A stretch of DNA of 64,000 bases, taken from IMG/VR virus record IMGVR_UViG_3300010399_000002, positions 1 through 64,000 of that record; one strand, 5' to 3'. A program made the translations under genes and the position numbers. Each line of letters opens with the position of its first letter. Position 1 is the first letter of the stretch. The DNA is from a virus. This document shows positions 2,575-28,965 of the stretch, piece after piece. Below the pieces are notes generated by a model. The model did no database searches. It was not told where the DNA came from and saw only the letters and a program-made list of their open reading frames with translations.

Positions 2575-2607
2575 CGCCTGCGACGTTTGCTGCGTCCACT
2601 TTTCATA

Positions 2608-4270: not shown

Positions 4271-4286
4271 GACAGATTATACCGCG

Positions 4287-6132: not shown

Positions 6133-6220
6133 GGTAATTTTTTGAGCCTGTATTTGGAGGGCCGCGGAGATACCTAACTTTACTGTAAATAATACAATAC
6201 TCTGAAAACTTGTTTTGGCA

Positions 6221-6508: not shown

Positions 6509-6554
6509 TTAGTACCTCCTTCTCAGTAAATCCTCTGCACGGGGAACTGATCCT

Positions 6555-7237: not shown

Positions 7238-7238
7238 C

Positions 7239-7436: not shown

Positions 7437-7813
7437 TTCGCGCTCCTTTCGATTGTGACTACCAACTTCCCTTTACGCGGTGACTTGGTTGGAAAACCGT
7501 TCTCGGGCCACTCCTCGGACTCCAAACTCAGAGCCCGCAGAATATTTACTGCACTGATGTAAAGTGTCTTGCTCTGCGGACTCGAGCGCCAGGCTTTTAG
7601 AGTCTCACCTTCGCTGTTATACACCGAGCGCTCGTACAGAACCAAGTTGCCTTGGTCTAAACACGGAACAACGAATACCTGATCGCTGTCTCTGAGCTTG
7701 CGACCCAGCAAAGCATTCACCAGTTGACTGGGTATAACCAACTGCGGTCTCTTGGGATTTCTCAGGCGGATGGTAGTCGGGGACCCGCCCTGCCCCACGT
7801 TGATTGGCTTCAT
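7433..7813 (-). CDS. Hypothetical protein, AbrB-like beta pattern
   Basis: 126 aa. The segment VIPSQLVNALLGRKLRDSDQ resembles the swapped-hairpin (AbrB) opening in which a beta strand leads into a short helix, but the match is by eye only. Start overlaps the upstream stop (ATGA). Confidence 0.62.
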   Translation of the reverse strand: MKPINVGQGGSPTTIRLRNPKRPQLVIPSQLVNALLGRKLRDSDQVFVVPCLDQGNLVLYERSVYNSEGETLKAWRSSPQSKTLYISAVNILRALSLESEEWPENGFPTKSPRKGKLVVTIERSAK

Positions 7814-8043
7814 GTCTTCTCCTTAGGGTCTTTTCTCTTTTCATCTTCGGCCGTCCATCCCCTCCGACCCCAACTTCCGTACTCGGTACGACCACTCATT
7901 CCGTTTCCGTGAAAGCTACCCGTTGCTGGACCGCCCGTCGTGGAACGGAAACCTGCATTCTGCTCAGCCTTGATATACTCTTCTTCGCTGACCTCTTTCT
8001 CGTCCCAAGGACCGTCGGGCTTCAAAAAATATCTTGTCTTCAC
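7810..8043 (-). CDS. Hypothetical Gly-rich protein, 77 aa
   Basis: GTG start overlapping the previous stop. Low-complexity glycine-rich middle (STTGGPATGSFHGNGMSG) and charged end. Not recognised. Confidence 0.65.
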   Translation of the reverse strand: MKTRYFLKPDGPWDEKEVSEEEYIKAEQNAGFRSTTGGPATGSFHGNGMSGRTEYGSWGRRGWTAEDEKRKDPKEKT

Positions 8044-8207
8044 TCTCCACCTCCATGAAACTCGCGGCGGGCTTTCAACAAACGATCTCGAACATGGACC
8101 GGAAGCTTATGGATCTCTGCTATACTCAACTTCACGGTCATCAGATACAACAACCGCAGATCCATGGCTTCTACTTCGACCTCGGTTAGCCGAGCTACAC
8201 TCATCAT
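8040..8207 (-). CDS. Hypothetical small protein, 55 aa
   Basis: Reads MMSVARLTEVEVEAMDLRLL and ends EFHGGGE, just before the next gene's GTG (GTGA overlap). GGAAGTG precedes the start. It fills an otherwise empty gap in a fully coupled gene string. Function unknown. Confidence 0.65.
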   Translation of the reverse strand: MMSVARLTEVEVEAMDLRLLYLMTVKLSIAEIHKLPVHVRDRLLKARREFHGGGE

Positions 8208-8212
8208 CGTAA

Positions 8213-8761
8213 TCACTTCCCACCTCCGAGCTTCTTGAGCTTCTCTTCTTGAACTTGCAACCGCACCTTCATCGATCTGTTCTCATGCAACGCTGCATCT
8301 CGAGTCTCTTCAGCCTTCTCGACCCTCTCGAGCAGCAACTTGTTCTCAAACAACAACTGCTGTCTGGCACGCTCAAGCTCGTCAATACGTTTACGCTGTG
8401 CTTCGAACTCCGATGCGGCCTTCACCTTTCTGGGATTTGATTCGAGCAAATCAATCTTGAGCCACGCCTCTGACGGAGCAATTGGAACTGTTGTAACCTT
8501 TTGGATTGGTTCTGCTGGTATGGGCACCAACTTGCGACGGAAGTACAACGCGATCTCGATACCGTTCCACGTTATGACTCCGATGCGACTGTGCTGGTCT
8601 AACCAGGTGAAACCCATCTTGTCTTCGACTACGTGCCTGGATGCGTCCTCGCCTGAAGCGTAGCGTAGAGACTTGGCGCTTAGCTGCGGTCTGTTCTTCA
8701 CATCGATCAAATCCGAGTCTGGGACTTTCAACTGTTGCGCTGTTGAAAACACTATCGGCAT
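8213..8761 (-). CDS. Hypothetical protein with C-terminal coiled coil
   Basis: 182 aa. Residues ~115-178 form an uninterrupted heptad-like coiled coil (RKRIDELERARQQLLFENKL and onward); the N-terminal half is alpha/beta. Probably oligomeric. Not recognised. Confidence 0.72.
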   Translation of the reverse strand: MPIVFSTAQQLKVPDSDLIDVKNRPQLSAKSLRYASGEDASRHVVEDKMGFTWLDQHSRIGVITWNGIEIALYFRRKLVPIPAEPIQKVTTVPIAPSEAWLKIDLLESNPRKVKAASEFEAQRKRIDELERARQQLLFENKLLLERVEKAEETRDAALHENRSMKVRLQVQEEKLKKLGGGK

Positions 8762-8763
8762 CC

Positions 8764-8955
8764 TTACACCCCCTCCGTTATCTCTTCATGGCAATCTGGA
8801 CAGACCTTATCTGAATCGTCAACACTAGAATCGTTATTGGACGAGCCTGGATGAATACCTGGATGTGGTGCTAAATCCTCGGGCTTCCATCGCTCCAAGT
8901 AGTCGTGCCCGCAACCCCAACAGGACGGTGGCACCTTTACCTTCGTTGTAGGCAT
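8764..8955 (-). CDS. Small zinc-ribbon protein, 63 aa
   Basis: Two CxxC knuckles, CWGC near residue 12 and CPDC near 52, separated by a Ser/Asp-rich linker. Likely one zinc ribbon; function unknown. Confidence 0.7.
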   Translation of the reverse strand: MPTTKVKVPPSCWGCGHDYLERWKPEDLAPHPGIHPGSSNNDSSVDDSDKVCPDCHEEITEGV

Positions 8956-9249
8956 TTACGTCACCTCCGGCTTCAGTTCGGGAAAGAACTTATCTGCCAA
9001 CTCGAAAGAACGTTTCTGCGCTTCTTCTGAAGCTTCGTCCCAACACCCATCACTCGGACGACCTTCCACTTCAAGATACAACTTAACTGCTGACCAGATC
9101 TCTTTCTTGGACTCGGGATCTCCGTCATTGAACGACACCCAGTTGTCGTAGATCACAACTGCGATGACCTCTCGCCCTACAAAATGCTTCACCAGCACGG
9201 TGTACATCATTAAACCGTTTGGGTGCAGAGTAGCTTTTTGATCTCCCAT
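8956..9249 (-). CDS. Hypothetical protein, 97 aa
   Basis: ATG at MGDQKATLHPNG taken because it overlaps the upstream stop (TGATG). Acidic C-terminus. No recognised domain. Confidence 0.68.
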   Translation of the reverse strand: MGDQKATLHPNGLMMYTVLVKHFVGREVIAVVIYDNWVSFNDGDPESKKEIWSAVKLYLEVEGRPSDGCWDEASEEAQKRSFELADKFFPELKPEVT

Positions 9250-9596
9250 CACTCTCCTCCTTTCGACTCACGCAGATGGATCTTTTTGGGCCTCAACTCC
9301 GAACGCGAAAAGTACAAAGCCCAAAACGCGAGACGCCTACGCTTGGGTATATACTGCCACAGGACCGCTTTGATAGCCGCACGCCTAGCAATCTCTTTGT
9401 TAGGCTTGTCCTTGTAATGTCGGCAAACCGAAGCTGAATACATTACTGACTGCGGTTCTTCGTTTGAAAGTTCTCGTATCTGTAACGTTGGTACTCTCGT
9501 CTCGATGTAGCAGATCGTCCGTTCGAACAAACCGGACAGCCTAGCAACCTTATCGTACTGAAAGGTTATAGCGTTACCGTACGCATCTCGAAGCAT
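9249..9596 (-). CDS. Hypothetical basic protein, 115 aa
   Basis: Basic toward the C-terminus (KRRRLAFWALYFSRSELRPKK). The start overlaps the previous gene's end by 31 bases, more than usual here. Not recognised. Confidence 0.65.
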   Translation of the reverse strand: MLRDAYGNAITFQYDKVARLSGLFERTICYIETRVPTLQIRELSNEEPQSVMYSASVCRHYKDKPNKEIARRAAIKAVLWQYIPKRRRLAFWALYFSRSELRPKKIHLRESKGGE

Positions 9597-9838
9597 ATCA
9601 GTTCACCTCCAATGGGATCCGTAGGCGGTGGAAACACAATCACTCCGCACTCCGAATGGAACACAAGATAATCGTTGATGTCTGTAACCCGAACCTCACA
9701 CTTGTTCTTGAGTGCTTTTGCGATGGAGCCTTCCATCTGAGCTTTCAACTCGGCCTCGTTGTCAACTCGAACAGGGTCTCCGTAGTAGCCTTTCTCATCG
9801 TAGATGTACACAAACAACGGATACAACTCTTCCATCAC
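9566..9838 (-). CDS. Hypothetical acidic protein, 90 aa
   Basis: Acidic alpha/beta protein (YIYDEKGYYGDPVRV). ATG start in an ATGA overlap with the upstream gene. Not recognised. Confidence 0.65.
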   Translation of the reverse strand: MMEELYPLFVYIYDEKGYYGDPVRVDNEAELKAQMEGSIAKALKNKCEVRVTDINDYLVFHSECGVIVFPPPTDPIGGELICFEMRTVTL

Positions 9839-10125
9839 TGCCTCCTCTTTTTACAAACGTGCGCTTTGATTTTCGTCCAACCTAACCTTCTGGCTGCTGT
9901 GATCCTGTGACTCCCGTCCATCAGCATATCTTGATTCTCACACAGAAACACTGGCAAGTAAGCTGCCTGCATGGAAAAAACGTACTCTTGCACTACAGAC
10001 TCCTTCTCGACAACATATGGACAGTACGTTTCAACATCGATCTCTTCGATTGGCAAGTGCTTGTAGTCCTCATACAAGTCTGTGAAAAAGCACTCACACT
10101 CATCTGCAAAAATCCCTTCTTCCAT
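9835..10125 (-). CDS. ParB/Srx-fold-like small protein
   Basis: 96 aa from MEEGIFADEC, whose ATG overlaps the glycosyltransferase stop (TGATG). The C-terminus MLMDGSHRITAARRLGWTKI is the DGxHR box of ParB-like nuclease-fold domains, which bind nucleotides or DNA. Whether it is catalytic cannot be judged. Confidence 0.65.
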   Translation of the reverse strand: MEEGIFADECECFFTDLYEDYKHLPIEEIDVETYCPYVVEKESVVQEYVFSMQAAYLPVFLCENQDMLMDGSHRITAARRLGWTKIKAHVCKKRRQ

Positions 10126-11060
10126 CACAGCCCCCTTTTGGATCTTCCGATCTCTTCGACTACCCCGAAAAAGTAAGCAACCTGCAACATGGCAATCAGA
10201 CACGCTAGTTTGAACTGCCTGCTCCAAGGTTGAATGTAACATGCAAACGGATACAACACTGACTCCATCTGAAACCCGAGAGTATTGAAAGGACTTTCGT
10301 GTCGTCCATTCTCTGCTACGATCTTACTGAACTGATAGGCGCCTCGGCCGTATCTGCGAAATTGTAACCAGATCCTCTTTGGGCTCATTACATGACGATG
10401 GTAGACTACGACACTCGGATCGTAATGAATCTCGTAGCCTGCTGCTAACCAGCGGTCCCACAACTCACGGTCATCACCTGCGGTTAGATTCAGTCTTCTA
10501 TCATACTGACCTACCTCGTAGAAGAGTCGACGGGACACGGCCATGTTGTGACCTCCGCAGATCTTTGTCCTGTATGGTGCACCACCTTTCACGTCTGTAA
10601 AAATCTCGTGCAGGAACCGAATGAACAACTGACTGGCAACCGAACTTAGGTTGTCATACACAAGTGGAGAGATCTCCATCGGACCTCCCACCATGCAATT
10701 GGGATATTGTTGATAGTGTCTCTTGAGAGCGAAAAGCCAGTACTGATCGGGATGGCAATCATCGTCTAAAAACACCACGATCTCTCCTAGAGCTTTACTC
10801 GCCCCCAAATTGCGAGCTGCGGCTGCGCCAGAATTGGCTTGATGGAAAAATCTGGTGAGTAGCAACCTATGCTCGTACTGCGCGTACTGTTTGAACTGTG
10901 CATACATTTCGGTTAGGGCTTTTTCGTCACCTCCATCGTTGACGATGATCACCTCAAACTCAGGAGGATCGTATTGCTCACACAGCAACCGCAGCATCTC
11001 TCCGACGTACTCTGGCCGGTTGTATGTTGGAATTACGATTGAAAACGTTTTCCACTTCAC
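10125..11060 (-). CDS. Glycosyltransferase family 2
   Basis: 311 aa, GT-A fold. It shows the donor-binding start FSIVIPTYNRPEYVGEML, NDGG near 41, the metal-binding DDD at 99-101 (FLDDDCHPD) and an acceptor-side GDDRELWDRW. The C-terminus has a hydrophobic segment near residue 285 that may associate with membrane. Target unknown: modified DNA bases, virion proteins or the cell surface are all possible. Two more glycosyltransferase-like genes lie at 29340-30623 and 35991-36842. Confidence 0.88.
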   Translation of the reverse strand: MKWKTFSIVIPTYNRPEYVGEMLRLLCEQYDPPEFEVIIVNDGGDEKALTEMYAQFKQYAQYEHRLLLTRFFHQANSGAAAARNLGASKALGEIVVFLDDDCHPDQYWLFALKRHYQQYPNCMVGGPMEISPLVYDNLSSVASQLFIRFLHEIFTDVKGGAPYRTKICGGHNMAVSRRLFYEVGQYDRRLNLTAGDDRELWDRWLAAGYEIHYDPSVVVYHRHVMSPKRIWLQFRRYGRGAYQFSKIVAENGRHESPFNTLGFQMESVLYPFACYIQPWSRQFKLACLIAMLQVAYFFGVVEEIGRSKRGL

Positions 11061-15464: not shown

Positions 15465-15480
15465 GAACAGCCTCCTGTGG

Positions 15481-15547
15481 TGGAGTTATCAGTTACTCCA
15501 TCCCGCCGGGACACTGGTTAGAGTGTCCCGACAGAAGGATTGTAACC
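15481..15547 (-). ncRNA. Structured leader RNA, copy 1
   Basis: On the minus strand a closing stem (GTTAC/GTAAC) and a 9-bp inner stem (CGGGACACT/AGTGTCCCG) flank the constant blocks AATCCTTC and GGATGGA. The 3' strand of the closing stem can instead pair downstream (TGGAGT/ACTCCA). Begins 4 bases after the upstream stop codon and ends before CAGGAGG. Confidence 0.8.
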
Positions 15548-15553
15548 TTCGAG

Positions 15554-16267
15554 TTACTTCGACAAGGGGTACGTGATCTTGTACTTGTCCCCCGTCACCT
15601 TGCACGTCCACTTCTTGCCCAGATATGCCTCGAGCTGGATGCCGTTCACCAACCGAGAGGGCTTCACCTCGCACTCCTTGGCGAGAGCGTTGATCTCCTT
15701 CTCGGTCGTGCCCTTCATGGCCAGCATGAACGCCCGGCCCATCGCGCTGCCGGCTTTGAACGGCAGATCCAAACCGCTGCCCTCGGGCTTGGCCTTCTTC
15801 TTGGGCTTGTCATCCGCCTTCTCGGACTTCTTTGCGGTCTTTTTGGTCTTGTCGGACTTCTTGGCCTTGGCCTCTTTGGCGGGCTTCTTGGACTTCACGG
15901 GCTTCTTCTTGTCTTCCACGTCTTCCTCCTCGTCGTCGGTCTCGGGCTCTTCTTCGTCTTCGGGGCTGTTGTCCTCGTCGATCTCGCTGATCTCTTCGGA
16001 CTCTTCGTCCTCTTCGGTCTCTTCCACGTCGTCTTCTTCGGGCTCTTCCGCCTCGGACTTGCTGACCTTCTTCTTTGCTGCTTTTTTGTCTGCCACTTTG
16101 TCTTTCTCCTTTTTCGGTCTGGGACCGGTTGGTTCCGCGTCGTCCAGGCAATCACTGGAACAGTACTCGCCCTTCTTACCACGGTATGTGAACGTTTTGG
16201 TGAACGGCTTGTGACAATGGTCGCAAGCGGTCTTTTTGGTTGGTTGACTCTTGTTCTCGTCTGACAC
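15554..16267 (-). CDS. Zinc-finger, acidic/basic low-complexity protein with C-terminal winged-helix-like domain
   Basis: 237 aa from a GTG with AAGGAGG. Residues 15-40 hold a zinc knuckle pair (CDHC and CSSDC). Residues ~75-120 are almost all Glu/Asp and ~120-165 are Lys/Ala-rich, like a histone tail. Residues ~172-237 form a compact domain (AGSAMGRAFMLAMKGTTEKE to GDKYKITYP) that resembles the ends of the proteins at 17749-18888 and 47460-47948. Probably a nucleic-acid or nucleoid protein; function inferred. Confidence 0.75.
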   Translation of the reverse strand: MSDENKSQPTKKTACDHCHKPFTKTFTYRGKKGEYCSSDCLDDAEPTGPRPKKEKDKVADKKAAKKKVSKSEAEEPEEDDVEETEEDEESEEISEIDEDNSPEDEEEPETDDEEEDVEDKKKPVKSKKPAKEAKAKKSDKTKKTAKKSEKADDKPKKKAKPEGSGLDLPFKAGSAMGRAFMLAMKGTTEKEINALAKECEVKPSRLVNGIQLEAYLGKKWTCKVTGDKYKITYPLSK

Positions 16268-16286
16268 GTCTGCCTCCTTGAAAATC

Positions 16287-16352
16287 GGATGGCCCGGTTA
16301 CTCCATCCCACCAGCCCACTCGAATGAGTGAGCTGATAGAAGGATTGTAACC
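16287..16352 (-). ncRNA. Structured leader RNA, copy 2
   Basis: Minus strand: GGTTAC/GTAACC closing stem and a 10-bp inner stem CAGCTCACTC/GAGTGGGCTG with one U-G wobble. An alternative hairpin GGATGG/CCATCC uses part of the 3' strand. Starts right after the upstream TAG and precedes the AAGGAGG of the zinc-finger gene. Confidence 0.82.
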
Positions 16353-16354
16353 TT

Positions 16355-16696
16355 CTAACGAAAACCCCACCGAGCCATCACGTCTGGCTCCGATGCGTTC
16401 TCCATCACATCACTCGTGCAAACTGGACAACCATCATGGAGATCCTTCCGACGAAAGTCGTTAGTGAACTCGCCTGAGCAGCCCGACTCTTGCATGATTG
16501 GATCATCCCACGCGGTAGACTCCATCCGACACTGCTGCCATTCGTTTGTGCGCTTGTTGATAAACCAGTGGTCTTCCTTGCGGTGCTGCAAGGCTCGAGC
16601 ACGTTGATAAACAGAATCGAGTGTAGACGGCATCAGCTTTGACAGTAGCTTAAAAAGCCATCGCCACCTTCTATCGAACTGACCTACTGTCTGCAT
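16355..16696 (-). CDS. Hypothetical protein, 113 aa, with cysteine pairs
   Basis: Start MQTVGQFDRRWR follows AAAAAGGAGGCAGTAACC, the ribosome site shared by several genes of this block. A CPVC knuckle and other cysteines in the second half suggest metal binding. Not recognised. Confidence 0.7.
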   Translation of the reverse strand: MQTVGQFDRRWRWLFKLLSKLMPSTLDSVYQRARALQHRKEDHWFINKRTNEWQQCRMESTAWDDPIMQESGCSGEFTNDFRRKDLHDGCPVCTSDVMENASEPDVMARWGFR

Positions 16697-16716
16697 GGTT
16701 ACTGCCTCCTTTTTGG

Positions 16717-16784
16717 TGGAACTCGAATCGTTCCATCCGGCCAACCCACTGCTGCGACAGTGAGCTGACTGAAGGACTACGATT
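16717..16784 (-). ncRNA. Structured leader RNA, copy 3 (compensatory variant)
   Basis: The closing stem is AATCGT/ACGATT instead of GGTTAC/GTAACC: five of six positions change and pairing is kept. The inner stem CAGCTCACTG/CAGTGGGTTG pairs fully with two G-U wobbles on the minus strand. The alternative hairpin TGGAAC/GTTCCA also covaries. The upstream gene's TAG stop lies inside the element. Confidence 0.85.
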
Positions 16785-16992
16785 GGCCTGGAGACTTGGT
16801 AAGTGCCTCGTTGTCCGTCAAGCACTCGTGAACGATGAACCTCGCTGCTGCGGCTGTCTCGTCCAACGTCCCCAAATGCACTGCGCCTTCGATGGGACGC
16901 CGATCAATCTTGGTTGTCAACTGATACAGCACTCGACCGTTGACACCTTCCTCGCGCTGCTTCTCGATGGTAAACGCAATGTGGACCTTCAT
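16777..16992 (-). CDS. Hypothetical protein, 71 aa
   Basis: Stops inside leader RNA copy 3. Alpha/beta composition, no recognised motif. Coupled to the upstream gene by a 4-base overlap. Confidence 0.67.
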   Translation of the reverse strand: MKVHIAFTIEKQREEGVNGRVLYQLTTKIDRRPIEGAVHLGTLDETAAAARFIVHECLTDNEALTKSPGQS

Positions 16993-17297
16993 CTCGTATC
17001 CTCCCTAACTGGAGCTGTGGCGATCAGCCCGAACAGATGAATCGGACTGCGATCACTGTACACCATAAACACGAACAGTTGGGCCTTGCTCCAGCCTTTT
17101 TGCCTCCACGGATTGGACACCTCGCCGTGAGGTATTACAAGCACGGTGTCATTATTCTTACCGATATACCAACCCGGACCTTTGAACTTAAACGTGGGCA
17201 TCTGGAACTCCATCTTCTTTACGGTCCCGGCCATTGTCCAATCCGGATAGATGTCAAACGACAACCTGGACTGTTTCTTCGACTGTTTCTTCTTCAC
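16989..17297 (-). CDS. Hypothetical protein, 102 aa
   Basis: GTG start (KKKQSKKQSRLSFDIYPDW) overlaps the upstream stop (GTGA). Lysine-rich N-terminus, then beta-rich with aromatic residues. Not recognised. Confidence 0.67.
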   Translation of the reverse strand: MKKKQSKKQSRLSFDIYPDWTMAGTVKKMEFQMPTFKFKGPGWYIGKNNDTVLVIPHGEVSNPWRQKGWSKAQLFVFMVYSDRSPIHLFGLIATAPVREDTR

Positions 17298-17554
17298 GGC
17301 TTCACCTTTCCGGCCTTGCGCTGCGCTTTCACAAACGCAACCAACGCCTTGTAAACCTCGGGCGAGCACTCCACTGACCAATTACGGTCAACGCGAGTAA
17401 CACAGAACTCACCAACCTCGGTGTCTACAAAGTAGTCTACGGCACCATCCTCGTCTCGAAGGTCGAGCACTTCGCCCACCTTCATAGAACCCAGAAACGA
17501 GGGCTTGAAAAACCTTTCGGGCTTTCCTTTTCGAGCCTTACTGATCTTCGCCAT
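17294..17554 (-). CDS. Hypothetical protein, 86 aa
   Basis: ATG after AAAGGAGGCAGTAACC, the shared ribosome site. Basic ends with an acidic centre (DLRDEDGAVDYFVDTEVGE). Preceded by the structured region at 17578-17719. Confidence 0.7.
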   Translation of the reverse strand: MAKISKARKGKPERFFKPSFLGSMKVGEVLDLRDEDGAVDYFVDTEVGEFCVTRVDRNWSVECSPEVYKALVAFVKAQRKAGKVKP

Positions 17555-17577
17555 GGTTACTGCCTCCTTTGTCTTCC

Positions 17578-17719
17578 GACCTGTCTCATCAGTGTTGGTA
17601 GGTCATTTCCAACAGAGCCTCGTAGAAGTTTTCCCACGAGGCTTTCGACAAAAATACTCGAGAGTGAAACGCATGGAGATATAGGAGGCATAGCGTTACT
17701 CCACCAGTTCACTCCCGAG
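17578..17719 (-). ncRNA. Structured intergenic region, second leader type
   Basis: The 194-base gap (17555-17748) holds three nested or adjacent inverted repeats: GACCT/AGGTC (17578-17604, also at 20919-20945), GCCTCGT/ACGAGGC (17617-17642) and a 12-base arm pair with one mismatch (17657-17668 with 17708-17719). A degenerate start of the main leader (CGTTACTCCACC, plus strand) is also present. Probably an mRNA leader; function unknown. Confidence 0.6.
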
Positions 17720-17748
17720 GTAGCCACGATCCCAAGTGACTACAAAAC

Positions 17749-18888
17749 TCAAGGTGTCTTGGTGAAGACTGCTCTCACCTCATCTTTGTTGAACTCCACA
17801 CGCCAGAAATTGTGTCTGAGGTCTTTGGAATATGCAATCAATCGCTGAGCCGGGTCGGCACACGGCAAACCGTTGGTAACATCGGCCTGCTTATGCCACT
17901 GCCCGTCTTGCAAGCGCGCCCAAATCATCGCCATGGCTGAACCTGGCGCATACATACCGCCGATCTTCTCACCTTTGGTTCGCTTGAGATTGCTCTTCGG
18001 TCCAGATGCTACACCCGGAACCTTCGGAGCTTTCGGTTTCTTGGGCTGTTTACCGTTGCCGACCACCACACCTGGCCCACCGGCTGTCCTGGCTGCAATG
18101 TTGCGAATGAGCAACCTGGAAGGTACGGTGCCGAGGTATGCCAACCAAGCATCGGCTACAGTCTGTACTGATGGAAGGACTTGGTCCAGCTTCACGACAT
18201 GCTGGCCATCGACCACCTGCACAGCGGAGGCTGTAAGCACGGTGCGAAGCTGACTCAGTAATAGTGGTAGCACCCCTTCGCGCTTGACCTGATGGTAGAG
18301 CTGTTGAGCGTATTCACGGCTGAAGGTGACTGTGCCGTTGCCGTCGAATTGTCTGGCCTTCTCGGCTTCGGCTACGGCGAATTTGATCTTCCCGCCGAAC
18401 GCCTTGTTAAGTGGAGTAACCACGGTATCGAACTTCCCGGTCAATCTGGCTTGCGATGCTTCGAGCTTTCCGCGCACCGCTTCCAGCTTCTTGTAGTAGG
18501 TCTCCATCTCGGGCATTTTGGGTATGACCTTCGACTCGCGCACGATCTTCTCGTACAAGCGAACCGCGGTACGCAGAGAAAGCTCCTGCTCTTGCTCAGT
18601 GGCACCTGGATTGATACCCAAGTTACGCGCACCGTTGGCTCGATTGTAGGACTTTTGCATCTCCGCTGACTGGGCTAGGTTAGTGTTCTGACTCAACACG
18701 TACGGCACGGCAACATCATACCAATTGATAGCTTCACTCAACGCAGTAAGCTGCATGGGAATAGAAGCTGTAATCAACTGCCTGTACGCCTTGAGTAGCA
18801 AACTGAGCTTGGGCTTGGGATACTGCGGAGCTGCTTTGACTTTCTTTGGCGCTCTCGGCGCCTTTGGTTGTCTTCTTTTGAACGGCAC
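17749..18888 (-). CDS. Large hypothetical protein, 379 aa, C-terminal winged-helix-like domain
   Basis: GTG start with AAGGAGG. The N-terminus is Pro/Lys-rich (residues 1-28). Residues ~30-260 are mostly helical, a basic linker with KQPKKPKAPK follows, and a C-terminal domain begins YAPGSAMAMIWARLQDGQWH. That domain resembles the C-termini at 15554-16267 and 47460-47948. Possibly DNA-binding; no family recognised. Confidence 0.75.
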   Translation of the reverse strand: MPFKRRQPKAPRAPKKVKAAPQYPKPKLSLLLKAYRQLITASIPMQLTALSEAINWYDVAVPYVLSQNTNLAQSAEMQKSYNRANGARNLGINPGATEQEQELSLRTAVRLYEKIVRESKVIPKMPEMETYYKKLEAVRGKLEASQARLTGKFDTVVTPLNKAFGGKIKFAVAEAEKARQFDGNGTVTFSREYAQQLYHQVKREGVLPLLLSQLRTVLTASAVQVVDGQHVVKLDQVLPSVQTVADAWLAYLGTVPSRLLIRNIAARTAGGPGVVVGNGKQPKKPKAPKVPGVASGPKSNLKRTKGEKIGGMYAPGSAMAMIWARLQDGQWHKQADVTNGLPCADPAQRLIAYSKDLRHNFWRVEFNKDEVRAVFTKTP

Positions 18889-18925
18889 TCTTGCCTCCTT
18901 GACGGAAAGTGTAATTGTACCTTAC

Positions 18926-19090
18926 TTAGGGTCTCTTCTTGAACTTCAACTCGGCGTCGGCTCTGGTAGGAGCCTGGATGACTGTTGAGCCTTTGAACTT
19001 TTTGGACTGGTGATGGATCTCTTTCTTGTCGGTGTGATAAGCGAAGGCTGAACCTCCGGCTGTTACCAACCACAGAGTAGATTTACTCAT
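18926..19090 (-). CDS. Hypothetical small basic protein, 54 aa
   Basis: Start MSKSTLWLVTAGGSAF overlaps the upstream stop (ATGA). A short hydrophobic N-terminal stretch precedes a lysine-rich tail. Not recognised. Confidence 0.65.
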   Translation of the reverse strand: MSKSTLWLVTAGGSAFAYHTDKKEIHHQSKKFKGSTVIQAPTRADAELKFKKRP

Positions 19091-19428
19091 AGTGAATCCC
19101 TCATGGCCCTTACAAGGCACGCTGGCTTGTTGCAAGCGCCCCGACCGAAATCGTGTGTACCTACGTACGTGTACTTTTTCTTGCAGTACCTGCACACTGC
19201 GGTATGCTCCACTTGTACCGACTTGTACTTCACAAGTCTGCCGGTCTTCTTCAGAAGAGTAAGGGAGCCTCCATCTAACTGCAGGATTATCCCTTTGATT
19301 GGATCGACTGACTTCGTTCTCCGACCCGGTTCGTTACCGCGCTTGGCGTCCTCTTGCAATGTAACAATCTCGCGCTCCCAATCTCGAACCGACATGGTAC
19401 GAACGTATGTAACGAAACGCTGACTCAC
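19087..19428 (-). CDS. Hypothetical protein with zinc knuckle, 113 aa
   Basis: GTG start chosen because AGGAGG sits 6 bases upstream, inside the leader that follows RNA copy 4. A CRYCKKKY motif near residue 80 and two further cysteines (CNKPAC) form a likely zinc site. Function unknown. Confidence 0.7.
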   Translation of the reverse strand: MSQRFVTYVRTMSVRDWEREIVTLQEDAKRGNEPGRRTKSVDPIKGIILQLDGGSLTLLKKTGRLVKYKSVQVEHTAVCRYCKKKYTYVGTHDFGRGACNKPACLVRAMRDSL

Positions 19429-19446
19429 AGTTACCTCCTTTTGAAT

Positions 19447-19502
19447 GGTTACTCCATCCGGCCAACCCACTCGGAGAATGGGTTGACTGAAGGATTGTAA
19501 CC
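19447..19502 (-). ncRNA. Structured leader RNA, copy 4
   Basis: Minus strand: GGTTAC/GTAACC closing stem and a 10-bp inner stem CAACCCATTC/GAGTGGGTTG with one U-G wobble and a 3-base loop. Begins 2 bases after the upstream TAG. The only copy without an obvious alternative downstream hairpin. Confidence 0.82.
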
Positions 19503-19504
19503 TT

Positions 19505-19699
19505 CTAGATTACAGGAACGGCGCACTTGTGCTCGTCGGCTCGAATATCGATCATCTGACCTGAACCGAGGACTGCACTATCCCTCGCAACTGGTAGACC
19601 TGATATGCGAACGACTGTTGTGCCGTCGTCCTTGTTGTTGACGTATAGGACCCCGCGACGCTGATCCCATTCGACTTCGCAATTTTCGATACGTTGCAT
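19505..19699 (-). CDS. Hypothetical protein, 64 aa
   Basis: Start MQRIENCEVEWDQRRG preceded by AAAAGGAG. Beta-rich, ending CAVPVI. Not recognised. Confidence 0.67.
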   Translation of the reverse strand: MQRIENCEVEWDQRRGVLYVNNKDDGTTVVRISGLPVARDSAVLGSGQMIDIRADEHKCAVPVI

Positions 19700-19710
19700 T
19701 TTTTCTCCTT

Positions 19711-19791
19711 TTACTTTTGGGTCAGTTTCCAAAGCGTTAGGAACGCCCACAGAGACAACGCGAATTTCAAAGCGGCTTCGCCTGGTTCCAT
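19711..19791 (-). CDS. Tiny membrane peptide, 26 aa
   Basis: ATG preceded by AAAGGACACAAA; reads MEPGEAALKFALSLWAFLTL then WKLTQK. A single hydrophobic helix flanked by charges. Lies between the von Willebrand A protein and the next gene, so it may act at the membrane with that product. Confidence 0.5.
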   Translation of the reverse strand: MEPGEAALKFALSLWAFLTLWKLTQK

Positions 19792-19805
19792 TTTGTGTCC
19801 TTTCG

Positions 19806-20894
19806 TCACGCCTTGGTGGGAGGAGCTGGAAGACAGAGGCGACTCGCAGCAGCAAGGAACTTCTGCTCGAAGTCTTTGGCCCTCATGACTCGCATGAACT
19901 CCCCACCGGTGGCCTTGCACGTCTCTTCGATAGCCTTGTGCATCGGATCGGCTCCGAACAACGACGTGTCTGCGCTGCTCACCAGAAGGATCACATCCAA
20001 CACGATGTTCATCTCCTTCATGGTAGGAATCAGCGTCGGCAACGATATGGCATCGTGTGACATGCCGTCGGTCACGAGAACCACATGATGCGCTCGCAAC
20101 GGCGACGGCGCCTTCTGACAGAGCTCGATGCTGGCCTTCACGGCTGGGAAAATATCGGTCCCGCCTTGAGGCGACATCAAGTTCAAAGCGTTGAGTAGAG
20201 TATCCCGCGTGTGGGCACCTTTGACATGCACGTTATGATCGAACTCGATCAACCTGATGTCGGGGTTCTCGTACTTGTTGTAGCGTTCTTCGATAGCCTT
20301 CTTGATATGCTTCTTCAAGGCCTGCATTTTGGTCTCCAGCCCGCGGAACTTGCTATAGTCCTCTTTGACTCCGAACATTTGGGTCAGGCCGAGCATCACA
20401 ACCGCGTCTTGCAGTAAGTCCTGGTTGTGAGTGAATCCCGCCAGCGCTGCAATTGCTACCTGCGGGTTCATGGACGACTGCGCTGCGCCGAACAATTGGG
20501 CCAGCAGCGCCTCCGGGTCGTTGACGTCGGGAACCTCTTCAGCCTCTTCGACCTCCGCGACCTCGTTGCTCAATGCCGTTTGGGATTCGACGATGGCTGC
20601 TGCGATCTTGGCCATGTTCTCTTCCGTCCACTTGTACAGCGTACGCGGATTGTCGGGTAGAAGATGACCGTCCATCGAACCAGAAATGTCGACGGTGAAG
20701 ATCAACTTCAAGAACTGCTGCGCCAGATCACTCAGCGACTTCGGGCCCTTGACTGGCTCGCGTTTCGCCGTCTGGGAAAGGACGAGATCTCCGCCGACCT
20801 CGGTCATCGACTGGATGTTATCATTCTTGGACTCGTCGTCCTTCTTCTTCTCGGGCTCGAGATTGTCCAAATCCAACAAAAAATTGTCACTCAT
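19806..20894 (-). CDS. von Willebrand factor A domain protein
   Basis: 362 aa from MSDNFLLDLDN, following GGAGGCAGTAACC. Carries a full MIDAS metal site: DISGSM (residues 69-74), the Thr loop in SPQGGTDIF and the Asp in LVTDGMSHD. A Glu-rich insertion follows the first motif. Such proteins bind partners through a divalent metal and often work with an AAA ATPase, but none of that kind is adjacent. Cytoplasmic, no signal peptide. Confidence 0.85.
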   Translation of the reverse strand: MSDNFLLDLDNLEPEKKKDDESKNDNIQSMTEVGGDLVLSQTAKREPVKGPKSLSDLAQQFLKLIFTVDISGSMDGHLLPDNPRTLYKWTEENMAKIAAAIVESQTALSNEVAEVEEAEEVPDVNDPEALLAQLFGAAQSSMNPQVAIAALAGFTHNQDLLQDAVVMLGLTQMFGVKEDYSKFRGLETKMQALKKHIKKAIEERYNKYENPDIRLIEFDHNVHVKGAHTRDTLLNALNLMSPQGGTDIFPAVKASIELCQKAPSPLRAHHVVLVTDGMSHDAISLPTLIPTMKEMNIVLDVILLVSSADTSLFGADPMHKAIEETCKATGGEFMRVMRAKDFEQKFLAAASRLCLPAPPTKA

Positions 20895-20918
20895 GGTTAC
20901 TGCCTCCTTTAGTTTTTT

Positions 20919-20977
20919 GACCTGTCTCTTCAGGACGGGTAGGTCATTGCCCGCCGACGGGAGCGACTGGCTCCCGT
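20919..20977 (-). ncRNA. Structured leader, second type, copy 2
   Basis: GACCT/AGGTC stem (20919-20945) with the constant block GACCTGTCTC (plus strand) shared with 17578-17604. It is followed by a perfect 7-bp hairpin ACGGGAG/CTCCCGT (20957-20977). Sits just upstream of the ribosome site of the von Willebrand A gene. Confidence 0.6.
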
Positions 20978-20983
20978 TTCGAC

Positions 20984-21202
20984 TCACTTGCAGTCTAGGG
21001 TGATGCAATTGCCATTCTGAATCCTGGCCAAAAACTTGCTCTTTCCGGACTCCGGCAACGTTGCTTGCCAAACCGACCTGGCTTCTTTCCAGCAAGTAAA
21101 AGCCTTGCGAGTGATTGGCTCACTCTCATATCTGGTAATACCGGGCGAAAGGTTAACTGGAGCTTTCTTAATCTCTGTGTCGATGACCCAGAACTTTTTC
21201 AT
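20984..21202 (-). CDS. Hypothetical protein, 72 aa
   Basis: Basic protein starting in an ATGA overlap with the upstream gene. No recognised motif. Confidence 0.66.
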   Translation of the reverse strand: MKKFWVIDTEIKKAPVNLSPGITRYESEPITRKAFTCWKEARSVWQATLPESGKSKFLARIQNGNCITLDCK

Positions 21203-21402
21203 GCGTTTCTCCTTTCGTACTCGTACTGGAACAAGCGCTGCTGCAACCTGACTTCGATAGGGACCTTCTGTTGATTGTACCTTTGGAGTATTGGATCGAT
21301 GTTGATAGCCTTCTCGAACGCTGCCTCGGATGAATCGGCTAGCACTCGAACAACTACCGTTGGATTGTCCATCGGAGCTTCGACTAGATACCAGGCTGTC
21401 AT
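21199..21402 (-). CDS. Hypothetical protein, 67 aa
   Basis: Start MTAWYLVEAPMDNPTVVVRV preceded by AAGGAG; the longer frame is a shadow of the upstream gene. The pattern resembles small phage proteins that begin with a beta hairpin and helix (SEAAFEKAI). Confidence 0.67.
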   Translation of the reverse strand: MTAWYLVEAPMDNPTVVVRVLADSSEAAFEKAINIDPILQRYNQQKVPIEVRLQQRLFQYEYERRNA

Positions 21403-21403
21403 T

Positions 21404-21880
21404 TTACGACTCCTTTGAAGTGTCGAACCTGTAACGATAGATGGTAGCCTCGTACCGCCCGGTCTTGACCCAACCGTAACCGACTTCACGATACGACTTG
21501 CGAATGTCGATCTTGCGAACGTTGACCTTGTCGGCCAACCTCGCCAGTTGGTTGTGCTTCGATACGGCCAGACCGTGACGGGGCTTGATGGACCGACTGC
21601 CGTTATCGGGATTGCGGTCAATGAAGTATCGCTCTCTCCAAAATTGGAGCTGCGACTTCGCAGCCTGCAATCGTTCCTCGGCAGATGCAGACTTCTTAAC
21701 CAGTTGGGGCTGAACCTTCCGGCCATCCGGCCTGCGGTTCTCTTTGATTCGAGCCTTCCACCTCTTGATCTCGGCTTCGAGACGCGGAATTTTTCTGGCC
21801 TCTCGTCTGGCCTTGGTGATTAGATCTTTGAGGTATTGAATGTTTGACTCACATCTGTCTCTGTCGTCTTTGTAGGGCAT
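21404..21880 (-). CDS. Hypothetical basic coiled-coil protein, 158 aa
   Basis: Start MPYKDDRDRCESN preceded by TTGGAGG. Long basic helices (ITKARREARKIPRLEAEIKR) predict a coiled coil; the C-terminus is Tyr/Arg-rich. Not recognised. Confidence 0.7.
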   Translation of the reverse strand: MPYKDDRDRCESNIQYLKDLITKARREARKIPRLEAEIKRWKARIKENRRPDGRKVQPQLVKKSASAEERLQAAKSQLQFWRERYFIDRNPDNGSRSIKPRHGLAVSKHNQLARLADKVNVRKIDIRKSYREVGYGWVKTGRYEATIYRYRFDTSKES

Positions 21881-22095
21881 CAGAAAACCTCCAACTCTAA
21901 GCCCAGTGACTTCGCAATCTTGCGGGCTTGAGAAACCGGAAACCACGCAATGCCGGCCTTGTCTTCTGCGTACGCTTTGTCTTTGGACTCGAATGGATCG
22001 GGATTGCCGTCTGTGAAGTACAACGGGCCGGCAGAATTGGTCTCCAACTTCAGGAACAGCTTCTTGGCCCAGCGAAGCTTCGTATTGAGCTTCAT
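21880..22095 (-). CDS. Hypothetical protein, 71 aa
   Basis: Coupled to the downstream gene by a one-base overlap. Basic N-terminus. Not recognised. Confidence 0.66.
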   Translation of the reverse strand: MKLNTKLRWAKKLFLKLETNSAGPLYFTDGNPDPFESKDKAYAEDKAGIAWFPVSQARKIAKSLGLELEVF

Positions 22096-22098
22096 GGT

Positions 22099-22278
22099 TT
22101 AGTTCACCTCCGTCTCGGACATGCGCTGCGGAATCGCCTTCGTAGCAGCCTGGTAGTTAACCCAAGCTGCGTCCTTGGCTTCGCGGCTGCCGGCCTTCTT
22201 CCAGACCTTCCATGCATCGATCATCGCGACGATAGCATCGGCCCGGCGATAAGCTAACTGCTCACGTTCACTCGTCAT
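22099..22278 (-). CDS. Hypothetical protein, 59 aa
   Basis: Reads MTSEREQLAYRRADAIVAMI onward and ends RMSETEVN. ATG follows GGAGGCAGTAACT, the shared ribosome site, just after leader RNA copy 5. Helical, amphipathic. Confidence 0.7.
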   Translation of the reverse strand: MTSEREQLAYRRADAIVAMIDAWKVWKKAGSREAKDAAWVNYQAATKAIPQRMSETEVN

Positions 22279-22299
22279 AGTTACTGCCTCCTTTTGTGG

Positions 22300-22365
22300 T
22301 GGAGTTATCAGTTACTCCATCCGGTCGGATCACTCAGAGAATGATCCGGCTGAAGGATTGTAACC
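22300..22365 (-). ncRNA. Structured leader RNA, copy 5
   Basis: Minus strand: GTTAC/GTAAC closing stem; inner stem CGGATCA/TGATCCG, a sequence unrelated to the other copies but paired in the same place. Alternative downstream hairpin TGGAGT/ACTCCA. Begins 1 base after the upstream TAA. Confidence 0.83.
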
Positions 22366-22366
22366 C

Positions 22367-22570
22367 TTACCGTGTCTTGATCTTCAGACCCGACTCGAGA
22401 GCCTCGCGCAGTGCCTTCGCAATTCGTCTGGCACCTCGTGTATCCCACATCCTGGTCTTTTTGTTGTACTGATATCCGTCGCAGTAACCGCCGAACACGT
22501 ATATGCCGGCGGCCTTACCTGATGGAACGATCTTGATCTCGAACTTGTAATGCTCGGTTGGTTTTCTCAT
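22367..22570 (-). CDS. Hypothetical basic protein, 67 aa
   Basis: Small alpha/beta protein with a basic C-terminal helix (RRIAKALREALESGLKIKTR). Not recognised. Confidence 0.67.
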   Translation of the reverse strand: MRKPTEHYKFEIKIVPSGKAAGIYVFGGYCDGYQYNKKTRMWDTRGARRIAKALREALESGLKIKTR

Positions 22571-22580
22571 GATCTCCTTT

Positions 22581-22853
22581 TCAAACCTTGTTGGTTGAGA
22601 TTGAACCTTTCACGACACTCCAACCGAAAGATGACCAACGACCTTCGGTTGGTCTCCACGACCTTTCGTTATGGGCGTAGGCTAATTCGATTGTAGGAGT
22701 CTCTTGCGCGTCTTCTTTGGACTCGGACGGGTAGCTCTTGACTACGATCTTGCTGACTGCTTCTTGCGTTGCAGGGTAGCATGAATCGTACCTGAGCATG
22801 TCCAAAGGGAAAGTGAATTTCCCGACCACTTTGAATCTCGTAATGTACATCAT
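22581..22853 (-). CDS. Hypothetical protein, 90 aa
   Basis: ATG overlaps the upstream stop (ATGATG). Beta-rich opening MMYITRFKVVGKFTF. Not recognised. Confidence 0.66.
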   Translation of the reverse strand: MMYITRFKVVGKFTFPLDMLRYDSCYPATQEAVSKIVVKSYPSESKEDAQETPTIELAYAHNERSWRPTEGRWSSFGWSVVKGSISTNKV

Positions 22854-23230
22854 ATGGCTTCGGCTTTCTCCTTTGCGGTATTGAGTAGCGATTGCAGCCT
22901 CGTGATCTCGTTCAGCAAGTCTTCTTTTCCCCACCTATAGTTTGGATTGTACTTGCCGGCCTCGAGAGCAACGTCGCGAAGAGAATTGGCTGCTGCACGC
23001 GTGCGCTGCTGCTTCTCAAGATAGGCTGTACGTTCTTCAAACGTTGCTTCATCCAATTGGTAATTGTGATAGCCAGAAGCACCTTGCAGCTTGCCGTCGG
23101 GACGAAACCGCATCGGCGATCCATCTCCGATCTTAACGTCGACGCAGCCACTCGGTGTTCTCTTGACTACCTCGCCTAGAGTGTAGTGAATATCGTGTCC
23201 GGTAAACCGAGCCAGATAAACTTGAGTCAC
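22850..23230 (-). CDS. Hypothetical protein, 126 aa, C-terminal coiled coil
   Basis: GTG start (TQVYLARFTGHD) overlapping the upstream stop (GTGA) after GGAGG. Beta-rich N-terminal half; helical C-terminus (DLLNEITRLQSLLNTAKEKA). Not recognised. Confidence 0.69.
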   Translation of the reverse strand: MTQVYLARFTGHDIHYTLGEVVKRTPSGCVDVKIGDGSPMRFRPDGKLQGASGYHNYQLDEATFEERTAYLEKQQRTRAAANSLRDVALEAGKYNPNYRWGKEDLLNEITRLQSLLNTAKEKAEAI

Positions 23231-23397
23231 TGAGCACCTCCCGATATAGCAACGAACACAGCGACGAATTGGTCTGGCTTCGGCATCTCCCACCGCAGAA
23301 TCTGCATGACCTTCCACGGCTTGCGCGCTGCGTCAAACCACGTGTCACCCTGCTTGGGGGCTCGCTTCTCGCCGGCTTTAAAAACTTGGGCTTTCAT
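23227..23397 (-). CDS. Hypothetical protein, 56 aa
   Basis: Reads MKAQVFKAGEKRAPKQGDTW onward, ending AISGGAQ. ATG follows GGAGGCAGTAACC after leader RNA copy 6. Small beta-barrel-like pattern (GDTWFDAARKPWKVMQ). Confidence 0.7.
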   Translation of the reverse strand: MKAQVFKAGEKRAPKQGDTWFDAARKPWKVMQILRWEMPKPDQFVAVFVAISGGAQ

Positions 23398-23420
23398 GGT
23401 TACTGCCTCCTTTTAATTGG

Positions 23421-23483
23421 TGGATTCTTGTCGTTCCATCCGGTCAGCCCACTCGCAGAATGGGCTGGCTGAAGGACTACGAC
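23421..23483 (-). ncRNA. Structured leader RNA, copy 6 (compensatory variant)
   Basis: Closing stem GTCGT/ACGAC replaces GTTAC/GTAAC with pairing kept; inner stem CAGCCCATTC/GAGTGGGCTG has one U-G wobble on the minus strand. A weak alternative hairpin (TGGA/TCCA) follows. As in copy 3, the upstream gene's TAG lies inside the element. Confidence 0.83.
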
Positions 23484-23671
23484 GCTTGCGGACTGTGCGC
23501 TGCGTGGCTTCGTATCCACGGCTGCGGCTTTTCCACTTTGGCTAGTGGAATAGTGAGGTCTCGACTTCCGATCTCGATCTTCAGCGACAGGAACGTCAAG
23601 TAACTTCGCTGATCTAGACAGTGGATCGTAGTCTCCGTCTTCAACAACTTGATGGCTTCGCGTCTCGTCAT
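23477..23671 (-). CDS. Hypothetical protein, 64 aa
   Basis: ATG after GAGGAG. Helical start MTRREAIKLLKTETTIHCL and beta-rich middle. Stops inside leader RNA copy 6. Confidence 0.65.
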   Translation of the reverse strand: MTRREAIKLLKTETTIHCLDQRSYLTFLSLKIEIGSRDLTIPLAKVEKPQPWIRSHAAHSPQAS

Positions 23672-23680
23672 TGTCTCTCC

Positions 23681-23878
23681 TCAATTGGGATAAGTAACTT
23701 TCTTGTGAGGGAACTGGCCTGCCCAACTCTTAACTTCGTCTCGTAACTGAAGATACGACTCGTACTGCTGTCCACCTTTGAGGATCTCGCTATTTGTTCC
23801 GAACTGGACGATGCGCTCGAAGGCTTCGAACTTTTTCCACATGCGAGCTACCAACCTGTCGAACTGGATATCGTTCAT
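23681..23878 (-). CDS. Hypothetical protein, 65 aa
   Basis: ATG after AAAAGGAG. Helical protein (MNDIQFDRLVARMWKKFEAF). First gene downstream of the large non-coding region and leader RNA copy 7. Confidence 0.67.
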   Translation of the reverse strand: MNDIQFDRLVARMWKKFEAFERIVQFGTNSEILKGGQQYESYLQLRDEVKSWAGQFPHKKVTYPN

Positions 23879-23924
23879 GTCTGCTCCTTTTAGTCGTCGA
23901 TGTCTTTGCCGAAGTTGCTGGGAT

Positions 23925-23998
23925 TGGAGTTATTAGGTTACTCCATCCGGCCAAACCACTCGCATTGCTGCGAATGATCTGACCAAAGGATTGTAACC
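23925..23998 (-). ncRNA. Structured leader RNA, copy 7 (longest stem)
   Basis: Minus strand: GGTTAC/GTAACC closing stem and a 13-bp inner stem, CAGATCATTCGCA/TGCGAGTGGTTTG, which pairs completely only if three G-U wobbles are allowed, all in the minus-strand direction. Alternative hairpin TGGAGT/ACTCCA. No gene directly abuts it upstream, so it may lie near a transcript start. Confidence 0.85.
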
Positions 23999-27981: not shown

Positions 27982-28965
27982 TTATCTCCTCCCCCGACGA
28001 ACTAGTCTGGACACGATTCCATCATGAATAAGCGTTGGCGAATAGTTCACACACTTCGCACACTCGTCCTTGAACAAACCTATGCGCATGAGTTCTTGCA
28101 TATCCTTCACCTTCGGACCTTCCCAGATCTCTTTGAGACTTTGCTCATGAAGATTGCCGTAATAATTCACTGTCTCTTTCTTGGGCTCGAAAATGTAACA
28201 ACACGATACCACATCTCCATCCTGCGTTACGGATACACTCGTGAACGGATTCAAACAGAAGCCGGCATGGGTTGGAACCTCTTCTGGCTGCCGACCTTGC
28301 ATGATACCAAAAGAATCTTGCACCGTTCTTATTGTAGCAAACCTATCCCAACCACGTTCTTGCATCAACACAGCAAGGGCCTCAACGTCACCAGAACCTT
28401 TCACTAGGTCAGTACATACCAATTGAAGCTCGATGAATGGTCTGTTCTCAACTGGTGTACCAACTAACGAATTGAAAAAGTAGTGCAAACTTGCTAACAG
28501 ATCATTCAACTTAGCTGGATACCGCATCTTGTGGTATACGTCTGGATCAACACTGTCGACTGAAATAGTCAGGGCATCGAGTAGCATCAAATCTTGTGTG
28601 ACTGTACTGCTCTCACGCCTCTTCTGCATGTTCAATCCGTGAGTACTCAAACCTACCATAAGACCTACGGTCTTTTGTAGATACCGTATGAAGTCTCGCA
28701 ACCTAGGGTGCATGGTAGGTTCTCCGGCTTGTTGTAATTCGATATACGATGAACCTTCGAAGTCTCCACGCTTGTACATGGTCTCGAGCAACTCAAACGG
28801 AAACAACCGTGGCTGGCGTTCTAGATTTGTTGTACGCAGGCACATGGGACACGCCAGATCACAAGCTGCTGTCAACTCGATCTGATAGATTGACGGTAGC
28901 CGTTTGTACGGTTCACCTTTTGCTTGCAGATATGCCTCTTGGCCGACGATTGGAAATGTTGTCAT
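27982..28965 (-). CDS. Radical SAM protein with SPASM-like C-terminus
   Basis: 327 aa. CDLACPMC (C35, C39, C42) binds the 4Fe-4S cluster; LQQAGEPTMHP follows. A C-terminal cysteine set (GFCLNPF, SCCY, CAKC) resembles SPASM/twitch auxiliary cluster domains. Substrate unknown; possibly peptide or base modification, given QueE nearby. Confidence 0.87.
   Translation of the reverse strand: MTTFPIVGQEAYLQAKGEPYKRLPSIYQIELTAACDLACPMCLRTTNLERQPRLFPFELLETMYKRGDFEGSSYIELQQAGEPTMHPRLRDFIRYLQKTVGLMVGLSTHGLNMQKRRESSTVTQDLMLLDALTISVDSVDPDVYHKMRYPAKLNDLLASLHYFFNSLVGTPVENRPFIELQLVCTDLVKGSGDVEALAVLMQERGWDRFATIRTVQDSFGIMQGRQPEEVPTHAGFCLNPFTSVSVTQDGDVVSCCYIFEPKKETVNYYGNLHEQSLKEIWEGPKVKDMQELMRIGLFKDECAKCVNYSPTLIHDGIVSRLVRRGRR

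Follow-up and report, generated by a model that had tools for sequence, protein, structure and literature searches.

Why does a phage place structured RNAs between its genes, and what would such RNAs do there? The question is raised by the virus record IMGVR_UViG_3300010399_000002, of which the first 64,000 bases were analysed (hereafter the window, to which coordinates refer unless otherwise noted). The record is 114,732 bp long and is probably a complete phage genome, because it has a direct terminal repeat of ~123 bp; nearly all of the phage genes are carried by the minus strand. In one 8.5-kb stretch, 15491-23998, seven hairpins of ~55-65 nucleotides (nt) lie on the transcribed (minus) strand, and two hammerhead ribozymes are found in the same operon. 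Our preferred reading, to which we assign a probability of about 0.4, is that the hairpins are intercistronic punctuation or processing elements with a built-in release of the ribosome site.

The hairpins form a compact family that is confined to this stretch. The signature TCCTT..GGATGGA has only seven occurrences in the whole record, all on the minus strand and at the places given in a preliminary description of this DNA (Table 1). A covariance model was built from the seven copies, as that description had proposed, and in a genome-wide search it recovers all of them at 67-81 bits, compared with 17-32 bits on the plus strand; there is no further genuine site in the genome, the next non-overlapping match having an E-value of 1.7. 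The copies are ~60-90% alike, and it should be noted throughout that they are paralogues within one genome rather than independent samples. Copy 1 has no gene upstream and the other six are intercistronic. These six had been said to begin at the stop codon of the preceding gene, which needs some qualification: the stop codon ends 1-6 nt before the element in four copies, and overlaps it by 7-8 nt in two. All seven are followed by a strong Shine-Dalgarno (SD) sequence, as had been noted, with 18-33 nt between the end of the element and the start codon (57 nt for copy 1).

On the mRNA strand the copies share a single bulged fold. Its outer part consists of a closing stem of 5-6 bp, an AA (or AG) bulge, UCC/GGA, a single U bulge on the 3' side and UUY/GGA; further in are a mismatch-prone pair, an R-Y pair, a wobble and an inner stem of 10 bp (9 bp in copy 7, and with a longer tip in copy 1). 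Five copies have U-G as the wobble and two have C-A (alignment column pair 20/51), an exchange that preserves wobble geometry because the two pairs are isosteric. The distance between the core and a distal block, CAYU/AGUG, is constant in all seven (alignment columns 11-29 are free of gaps). Only the tip varies, so that the inner stem is not, as first thought, a helix of free length (7-13 bp). The closing stems do change as pairs (GGTTAC/GTAACC, AATCGT/ACGATT, GTCGT/ACGAC), as originally described. Of the 25 base pairs, 12 are altered on both sides, with 95.4% of alignment cells paired; the covariation score is 0.406 against 0.222 in shuffles, none of 500 shuffles reaches it, and sliding the pairing partners out of register abolishes the signal. 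G-U cells outnumber A-C cells by 26 to 7 on the mRNA strand (p=0.001; p=0.03 leaving out the invariant U-G). The wobbles thus favour the minus strand, although they do not fit it exclusively, as had been claimed. Six copies have a minus-strand fold with z ≤ -4.0 relative to mononucleotide shuffles, and copy 2 has z=-2.9. The hairpin is a real structure at the level of RNA. With 25 pairs and two small bulges, its stem is a duplex of about two helical turns, such as RNase III sites between cistrons have.

Structured leaders fill equivalent slots ahead of nine gene blocks of this operon, and seven of these leaders are the hairpins. Ahead of the genes starting at 20894 and 17554 there is another structured RNA, which the preliminary description did not contain. 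In both cases it is followed by the block AAAGGAGGCAGTAACCATG, 19 nt that include the SD and in which GTAACC precedes the ATG; this block is conserved at five genes and stands behind two unrelated RNA structures. The two RNAs are identified, by model matches, as type II hammerhead ribozymes. Rfam missed both of them at the gathering threshold, in a 9-kb search judged by E-value and in a genome-wide search with RF02276; the RF02276 matches listed in Table 1 were obtained in tight windows and lie below the 37-bit gathering score, whereas an independent model, built solely from hammerhead sequences outside this phage, scores both highly. A pattern derived from the two matched 31 stretches in IMG/VR, all with a fixed 28-nt core and an upstream GTCGAAA; these RNAs are of the type II hammerhead form with a pseudoknot between loop I and the tail that was described by Perreault et al. 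(PMC3088659).

Hammerheads of phage contigs occupy a very similar position. Among 72 non-redundant examples, 52 start at a distance of -1 or 0 nt from the stop codon of the gene before, and the following gene usually starts 13-35 nt further down. Adjacency to a stop codon is therefore common to intercistronic elements of phages, and does not single out the sensing of ribosomes. The IMG/VR locus L062 has 15 type II hammerheads in 10.4 kb (82-10452, plus strand) between successive genes, of which Rfam at its gathering threshold lists only two; other phage contigs (L035, L038, L053, L054, L055 and L060) also contain runs of hammerheads between genes, mostly beginning at the stop codon. It has been proposed that clustered phage hammerheads cut long transcripts into gene-length mRNAs, and cleavage has been demonstrated in vitro for three tandem arrangements (PMC3088659).

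The second feature of the hairpins is that their 3' arm has two possible partners. In all seven copies the GGAUGGA arm is also able to form a hairpin with the spacer that precedes the ribosome site (energy-based test with one bulge allowed); such an alternative hairpin had been recognized before, in five. The pairings are GG(A)UGGAGU/ACUCCACC in two copies, GG(A)UGGAAC/GUUCCACC, GG(A)UGGA/UCCACC, GGAUGGAGU/ACUCC(A)AUCC, GGAUGG/CCAUCC and GGAUGG/CCAUUC. Tested against shuffled spacers, the single copies give p values of 0.002-0.06, which combine naively to 1.5e-7, to 1.3e-4 when the TCCACC family is counted once (four spacer classes), and to 6e-4 when the least favourable member stands for that family. 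An earlier test, based on the longest perfect helix against shuffles, had been weak (per-copy p 0.02-0.28); it is the energy-based test with a bulge that is relied upon here. Blocking the 5' arm raises the predicted accessibility of the SD in six of the seven copies (for example, from 0.21 to 0.94 in copy 5, and from 0.21 to 0.76 in copy 3). With shuffled spacers the mean change is ≤0.10, and the five distinct spacers give p=8e-4. The two pairings of the 3' arm are predicted to be mutually exclusive in every copy, making a four-segment switch, and the balance between two folds that was originally suggested fits these predictions. A direct pairing of the 5' arm with the SD and the GTAACC before the ATG is the minimum free energy structure for copy 3, and for copy 4 in one fold frame. 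It was rejected as a general feature because it is possible in these two copies only and because the GTAACC block is also present at the hammerhead genes.

Table 1. Structured RNAs, competing spacer segments and SD-start blocks in the window (competitor p values are from the energy-based test).
Feature	Position	Strand	Remarks
Hairpin copy 1	23936-23998	-	71.9 bits; leader of the operon, lacks a directly upstream gene; stem tip longer than in the other copies
Hairpin copy 2	23431-23483	-	75.4 bits; closing stem GTCGT/ACGAC; TAG stop of upstream open reading frame (ORF) inside
Hairpin copy 3	22310-22365	-	76.4 bits
Hairpin copy 4	19447-19502	-	81.2 bits
Hairpin copy 5	16726-16784	-	67.5 bits; closing stem AATCGT/ACGATT; contains TAG stop of upstream ORF
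Hairpin copy 6	16296-16352	-	81.4 bits
Hairpin copy 7	15491-15547	-	76.3 bits
Type II hammerhead, predicted	20919-20983	-	directly after TGA stop; RF02276 33.3 bits, E 1.3e-5; independent model 67.7 bits, E 3e-15
Type II hammerhead, predicted	17578-17649	-	before SD, no stop ≤40 nt upstream; RF02276 26.7 bits; independent model 71.4 bits, E 3e-16
Copy 1 competitor ACTCCAATCC	23921-23930	-	pairs with GGAUGGAGU, 9 bp with one bulge; p=0.021
Copy 2 competitor TCCACC	23419-23424	-	p=0.05
Copy 3 competitor ACTCCACC	22298-22305	-	p=0.006
Copy 4 competitor CCATTC	19443-19448	-	overlaps element end; p=0.018
Copy 5 competitor GTTCCACC	16715-16722	-	fits altered 3' arm TGGAAC; p=0.002
Copy 6 competitor CCATCC	16287-16292	-	p=0.06
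Copy 7 competitor ACTCCACC	15479-15486	-	p=0.01
AAAGGAGGCAGTAACCATG behind copy 2	23395-23413	-	0.01 expected by chance
AAAGGAGGCAGTAACCATG behind copy 3	22276-22294	-	one mismatch
AAAGGAGGCAGTAACCATG behind copy 5	16694-16712	-	
AAAGGAGGCAGTAACCATG behind hammerhead	20892-20910	-	
AAAGGAGGCAGTAACCATG behind hammerhead	17552-17570	-	

The covarying fold, the competing hairpin of each of the seven copies, and the slot and SD block in common with the hammerheads were all computed directly, and a mechanism can be suggested from them. Each hairpin, lying in the interval from one block's stop codon to the next block's ribosome site, would act as a switch of four segments, with the 5' arm (closing strand and UCCUUY) as segment 1, the 3' arm (GGAUGGA and closing strand) as segment 2, the UCC-containing spacer as segment 3 and the SD (AAGGAGG) as segment 4. 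While the 1:2 stem is closed, segment 3 would be free to pair with the SD, and the ribosome site would be partly masked; upon removal of segment 1, segments 2 and 3 would pair and the SD would become freer. The likeliest way of removing segment 1 would be an endonucleolytic cut in the ~25-bp stem by host RNase III or a similar enzyme. We infer the cleavage, the enzyme, the refolding of the 3' fragment with exposure of the SD, and the effect on translation. The polycistronic transcript would thereby be cut into mRNAs in which a small stem-loop of segments 2 and 3 comes first and the ribosome site is open, and the two hammerheads would do the equivalent job in their slots through self-cleavage.

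Evidence for this scheme includes the covariation, the specificity of the model for the minus strand, the alternative hairpin and the predicted gain in SD accessibility, the slot and SD block that the hammerheads share, the runs of hammerheads in other phage contigs, the precedent of T7, the constant spacing from core to distal block and the existence of a leader copy without an upstream gene. There are also several points that weigh against it. RNase III is not generally known to require an invariant sequence, and TCCTTY/GGATGGA is nearly invariant here; part of this conservation would be explained if GGAUGGA pairs both with segment 1 and with segment 3. No RNase III is recognisable among the phage's own genes, so that the enzyme would be supplied by the host. 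The masking of the SD by segment 3 involves only 3-4 bp and is thermodynamically weak, and copy 4 has no predicted gain in SD accessibility upon opening. The swapping of spacers among copies gives a borderline result, 6.7% of permutations being equally good, because most of the arms and spacers resemble each other. Finally, as already noted, the seven copies are paralogues.

The same switch could instead be opened by translation. The preliminary description had proposed that the balance between the folds could be shifted by a ribosome standing at the stop codon of the preceding gene; in such a translational attenuator, a ribosome finishing the upstream gene would cover segment 1, the 2:3 pairing would form and the SD would be released. 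Translation of the downstream gene would then be coupled to that of the upstream gene in the manner of the erm genes, with a real gene replacing the leader peptide. A terminating ribosome's footprint would cover the 5' arm, and this is compatible with the position of the stop codon in six of the seven copies, which ranges from 8 nt within the closing stem to 6 nt ahead of it. The alternative hairpin and the predicted SD accessibility speak for the attenuator as they do for cleavage. However, copy 1 has no upstream gene, the hammerheads of other phages are equally close to stop codons, so that the position is not diagnostic, and plain stop-start overlap, by which some other genes of the operon seem to be coupled, would suffice for coupling. 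The ribosome is thus not specifically supported as the trigger, and the interpretation offered in the preliminary description is partly supported overall. As the two hammerheads have an equivalent slot and the same SD block, punctuation or processing of the transcript is an equally good or better trigger, and we regard the attenuator as possible but somewhat doubtful.

Other explanations are less likely than either cleavage by an enzyme or opening by a ribosome. An RNA-binding protein of the phage or host might read the bulged core as an operator and control translation or elongation, as RegA, coat proteins or the put sites do. The invariant bulged core between covarying stems, the isosteric U-G/C-A wobble and the fixed distance to CAYU/AGUG would all suit an operator, but there is no candidate protein, the ORFs headed by the elements having no Pfam match above the curated cut-off, and an operator alone does not predict a competing hairpin in seven copies out of seven; we consider it distinctly unlikely. 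It is a little less unlikely that the hairpins belong to a new, self-acting class of phage punctuation RNA that is interchangeable with hammerheads in one operon. They would then be minimal self-cleaving ribozymes, or else switches activated by cleavage. In the latter case the freed, SD-like GGAUGGA strand would trap the anti-SD spacer and so turn the next gene on. A more specific proposal is that they represent a new class of self-cleaving ribozyme, recognised because it occurs close to hammerheads in a phage operon. The two hammerheads in equivalent slots are suggestive, and pistol, hatchet and twister sister were discovered through their association with genes of phages and of known ribozymes (PMC4604425). 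Against this, the hairpin is unbranched, has small bulges only and shows no pseudoknot, the hammerhead core CUGANGA/GAAA is absent, no Rfam ribozyme family matches, and most RAGATH motifs have not been demonstrated as ribozymes (PMC11061315), so that we hold a new ribozyme to be improbable. Least probable of all, and disfavoured, is a DNA-level repeat (REP-like, or a recombination hairpin) that spreads between genes without acting as RNA. The copies are imperfect palindromes after stop codons and have the degree of likeness given above, but all seven are in transcript orientation and before an SD, G-U pairs are in excess on the mRNA strand, the hairpin competes with its spacer, and no copy is found elsewhere in the genome.

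Relatives of the hairpin were sought by sparse, exact-pattern scans of viral and bacterial contigs and by BLAST of phage and plasmid records. In agreement with the earlier statement that no class matches, no Rfam 15 family was found at the gathering threshold in the window, in the region, or in tight windows at two of the copies, the last being added because the wider Rfam searches had missed both hammerheads. In IMG/VR, nothing carried both closing strands by exact pattern. Matches outside the phage (two for the inner stem, attributed to chance, 13 for a looser pattern, one for the core and five in bacterial genomes) were not taken as relatives. The best of the outside matches, L018 (19.7 bits), has a good-looking fold, but would seem to be a coincidence, as it is the sole match in its contig and lies inside an asparagine-synthase-like ORF. 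The hairpin covariance model found no match in 32 loci, 31 of them hammerhead-bearing. A search with peptide patterns from the DNA polymerase and vWA proteins gave no kin, BLAST of the region, three operon proteins and two element copies gave no match among phage records, and the only match in plasmid records was a trivial one of 21 nt.

Several known kinds of element were considered and set aside. The hammerhead core, CTGANGA with GAAA, is in none of the seven elements, and the Rfam hammerhead models fail in tight windows at two of them. An intrinsic terminator is not called at any element, and the spacers contain no T run. Promoter-bearing stem-loop cassettes of the PeSL type are not indicated, there being no minus-strand sigma-70-type site at the elements and a number of such sites equal to that in shuffles (only sigma-70-type sites were considered). 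The hairpin thus appears, within the scope of Rfam and these scans, to be an undescribed element of a known sort, that is, phage intercistronic punctuation.

Of the known systems, the type II hammerheads (RF02276; PMC3088659) are the nearest in position. They sit in the same slot, adjoining the stop codon of the gene before and usually 13-35 nt ahead of the following start, and here they share the operon and the SD block as well. The hairpin differs from them in lacking their CUGANGA/GAAA core, three-way junction and pseudoknot, in being a single bulged hairpin, and in that self-cleavage is only hypothetical for it. Phage T7 has an RNase III site ahead of its first gene, much as copy 1 here heads the operon. 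The R1.1-type RNase III sites of T7 resemble the present elements in being hairpins of ~60 nt, several per 7-9 kb, in an operon of small genes. The scale here, nine elements in 8.5 kb with hairpins of ~56 nt, is similar to that of the T7 early mRNA, ~7 kb long, in which RNase III acts at five sites (PMC4858673). In contrast to the T7 sites, the hairpin has an invariant core and a built-in competing hairpin before the SD, and its cleavage is putative; BLAST showed no relationship to T7.

Attenuators of the erm and cat type oppose 1:2 and 3:4 pairings to a 2:3 pairing that releases the SD. The hairpin is like them in this four-segment logic and SD release, and unlike them in that a full gene, not a drug-stalled leader peptide, ends in its upstream segment, that there are seven copies in one operon, and that the 3:4 pairing is weak. 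The start-associated sequences (SAS) of cluster K mycobacteriophages and their extended forms (ESAS; PMC3203893) provide a further likeness, a repeated hairpin-like element before a conserved SD-start block at many non-structural genes of a single phage. An ESAS consists of the 13-bp SAS GGGATAGGAGCCC and 17-bp inverted repeats, and its departures do not, according to Pope et al., support base-pairing in RNA (PMC3203893). The hairpins were not assigned to this family, since their pairs covary strongly and the SAS differs from the SD block here.

The mixture of hairpins and hammerheads bears on the question of why phages place hammerheads between genes. One operon with nine blocks provides a natural comparison, its slots being filled by two hammerheads or by seven hairpins that have a mutually exclusive partner beside the ribosome site. 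Should cutting or opening of the hairpin release that site, the common purpose of such elements (cutting of transcripts, release of the SD or insulation) becomes directly testable.

The phage itself has no close kin in the collections searched: megablast of the element region gave no match in them, and its DNA polymerase is at best 22-28% identical to phage homologues. This polymerase is of family A and carries an N-terminal uracil-DNA glycosylase domain in the same ORF (PF00476 and PF03167; 40463-43138, minus strand). Other genes on the minus strand of the window encode a 928-residue protein with a calcineurin-like phosphoesterase and an AAA_23 ATPase, resembling a fusion of SbcD and SbcC (31057-33843), a SPASM-domain radical SAM protein (27982-28965) and a PF04095 nicotinate/nicotinamide phosphoribosyltransferase that possibly serves NAD+ replenishment (57722-59296). 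In the right half of the genome, outside the window, an intergenic repeat CCCCTnACCAACTACCA...GAGTGCCTGnnAGGCCCTAG occurs in two copies (~99545-99665 and ~104137-104257 of the record, minus strand) and is perhaps a promoter or another leader.

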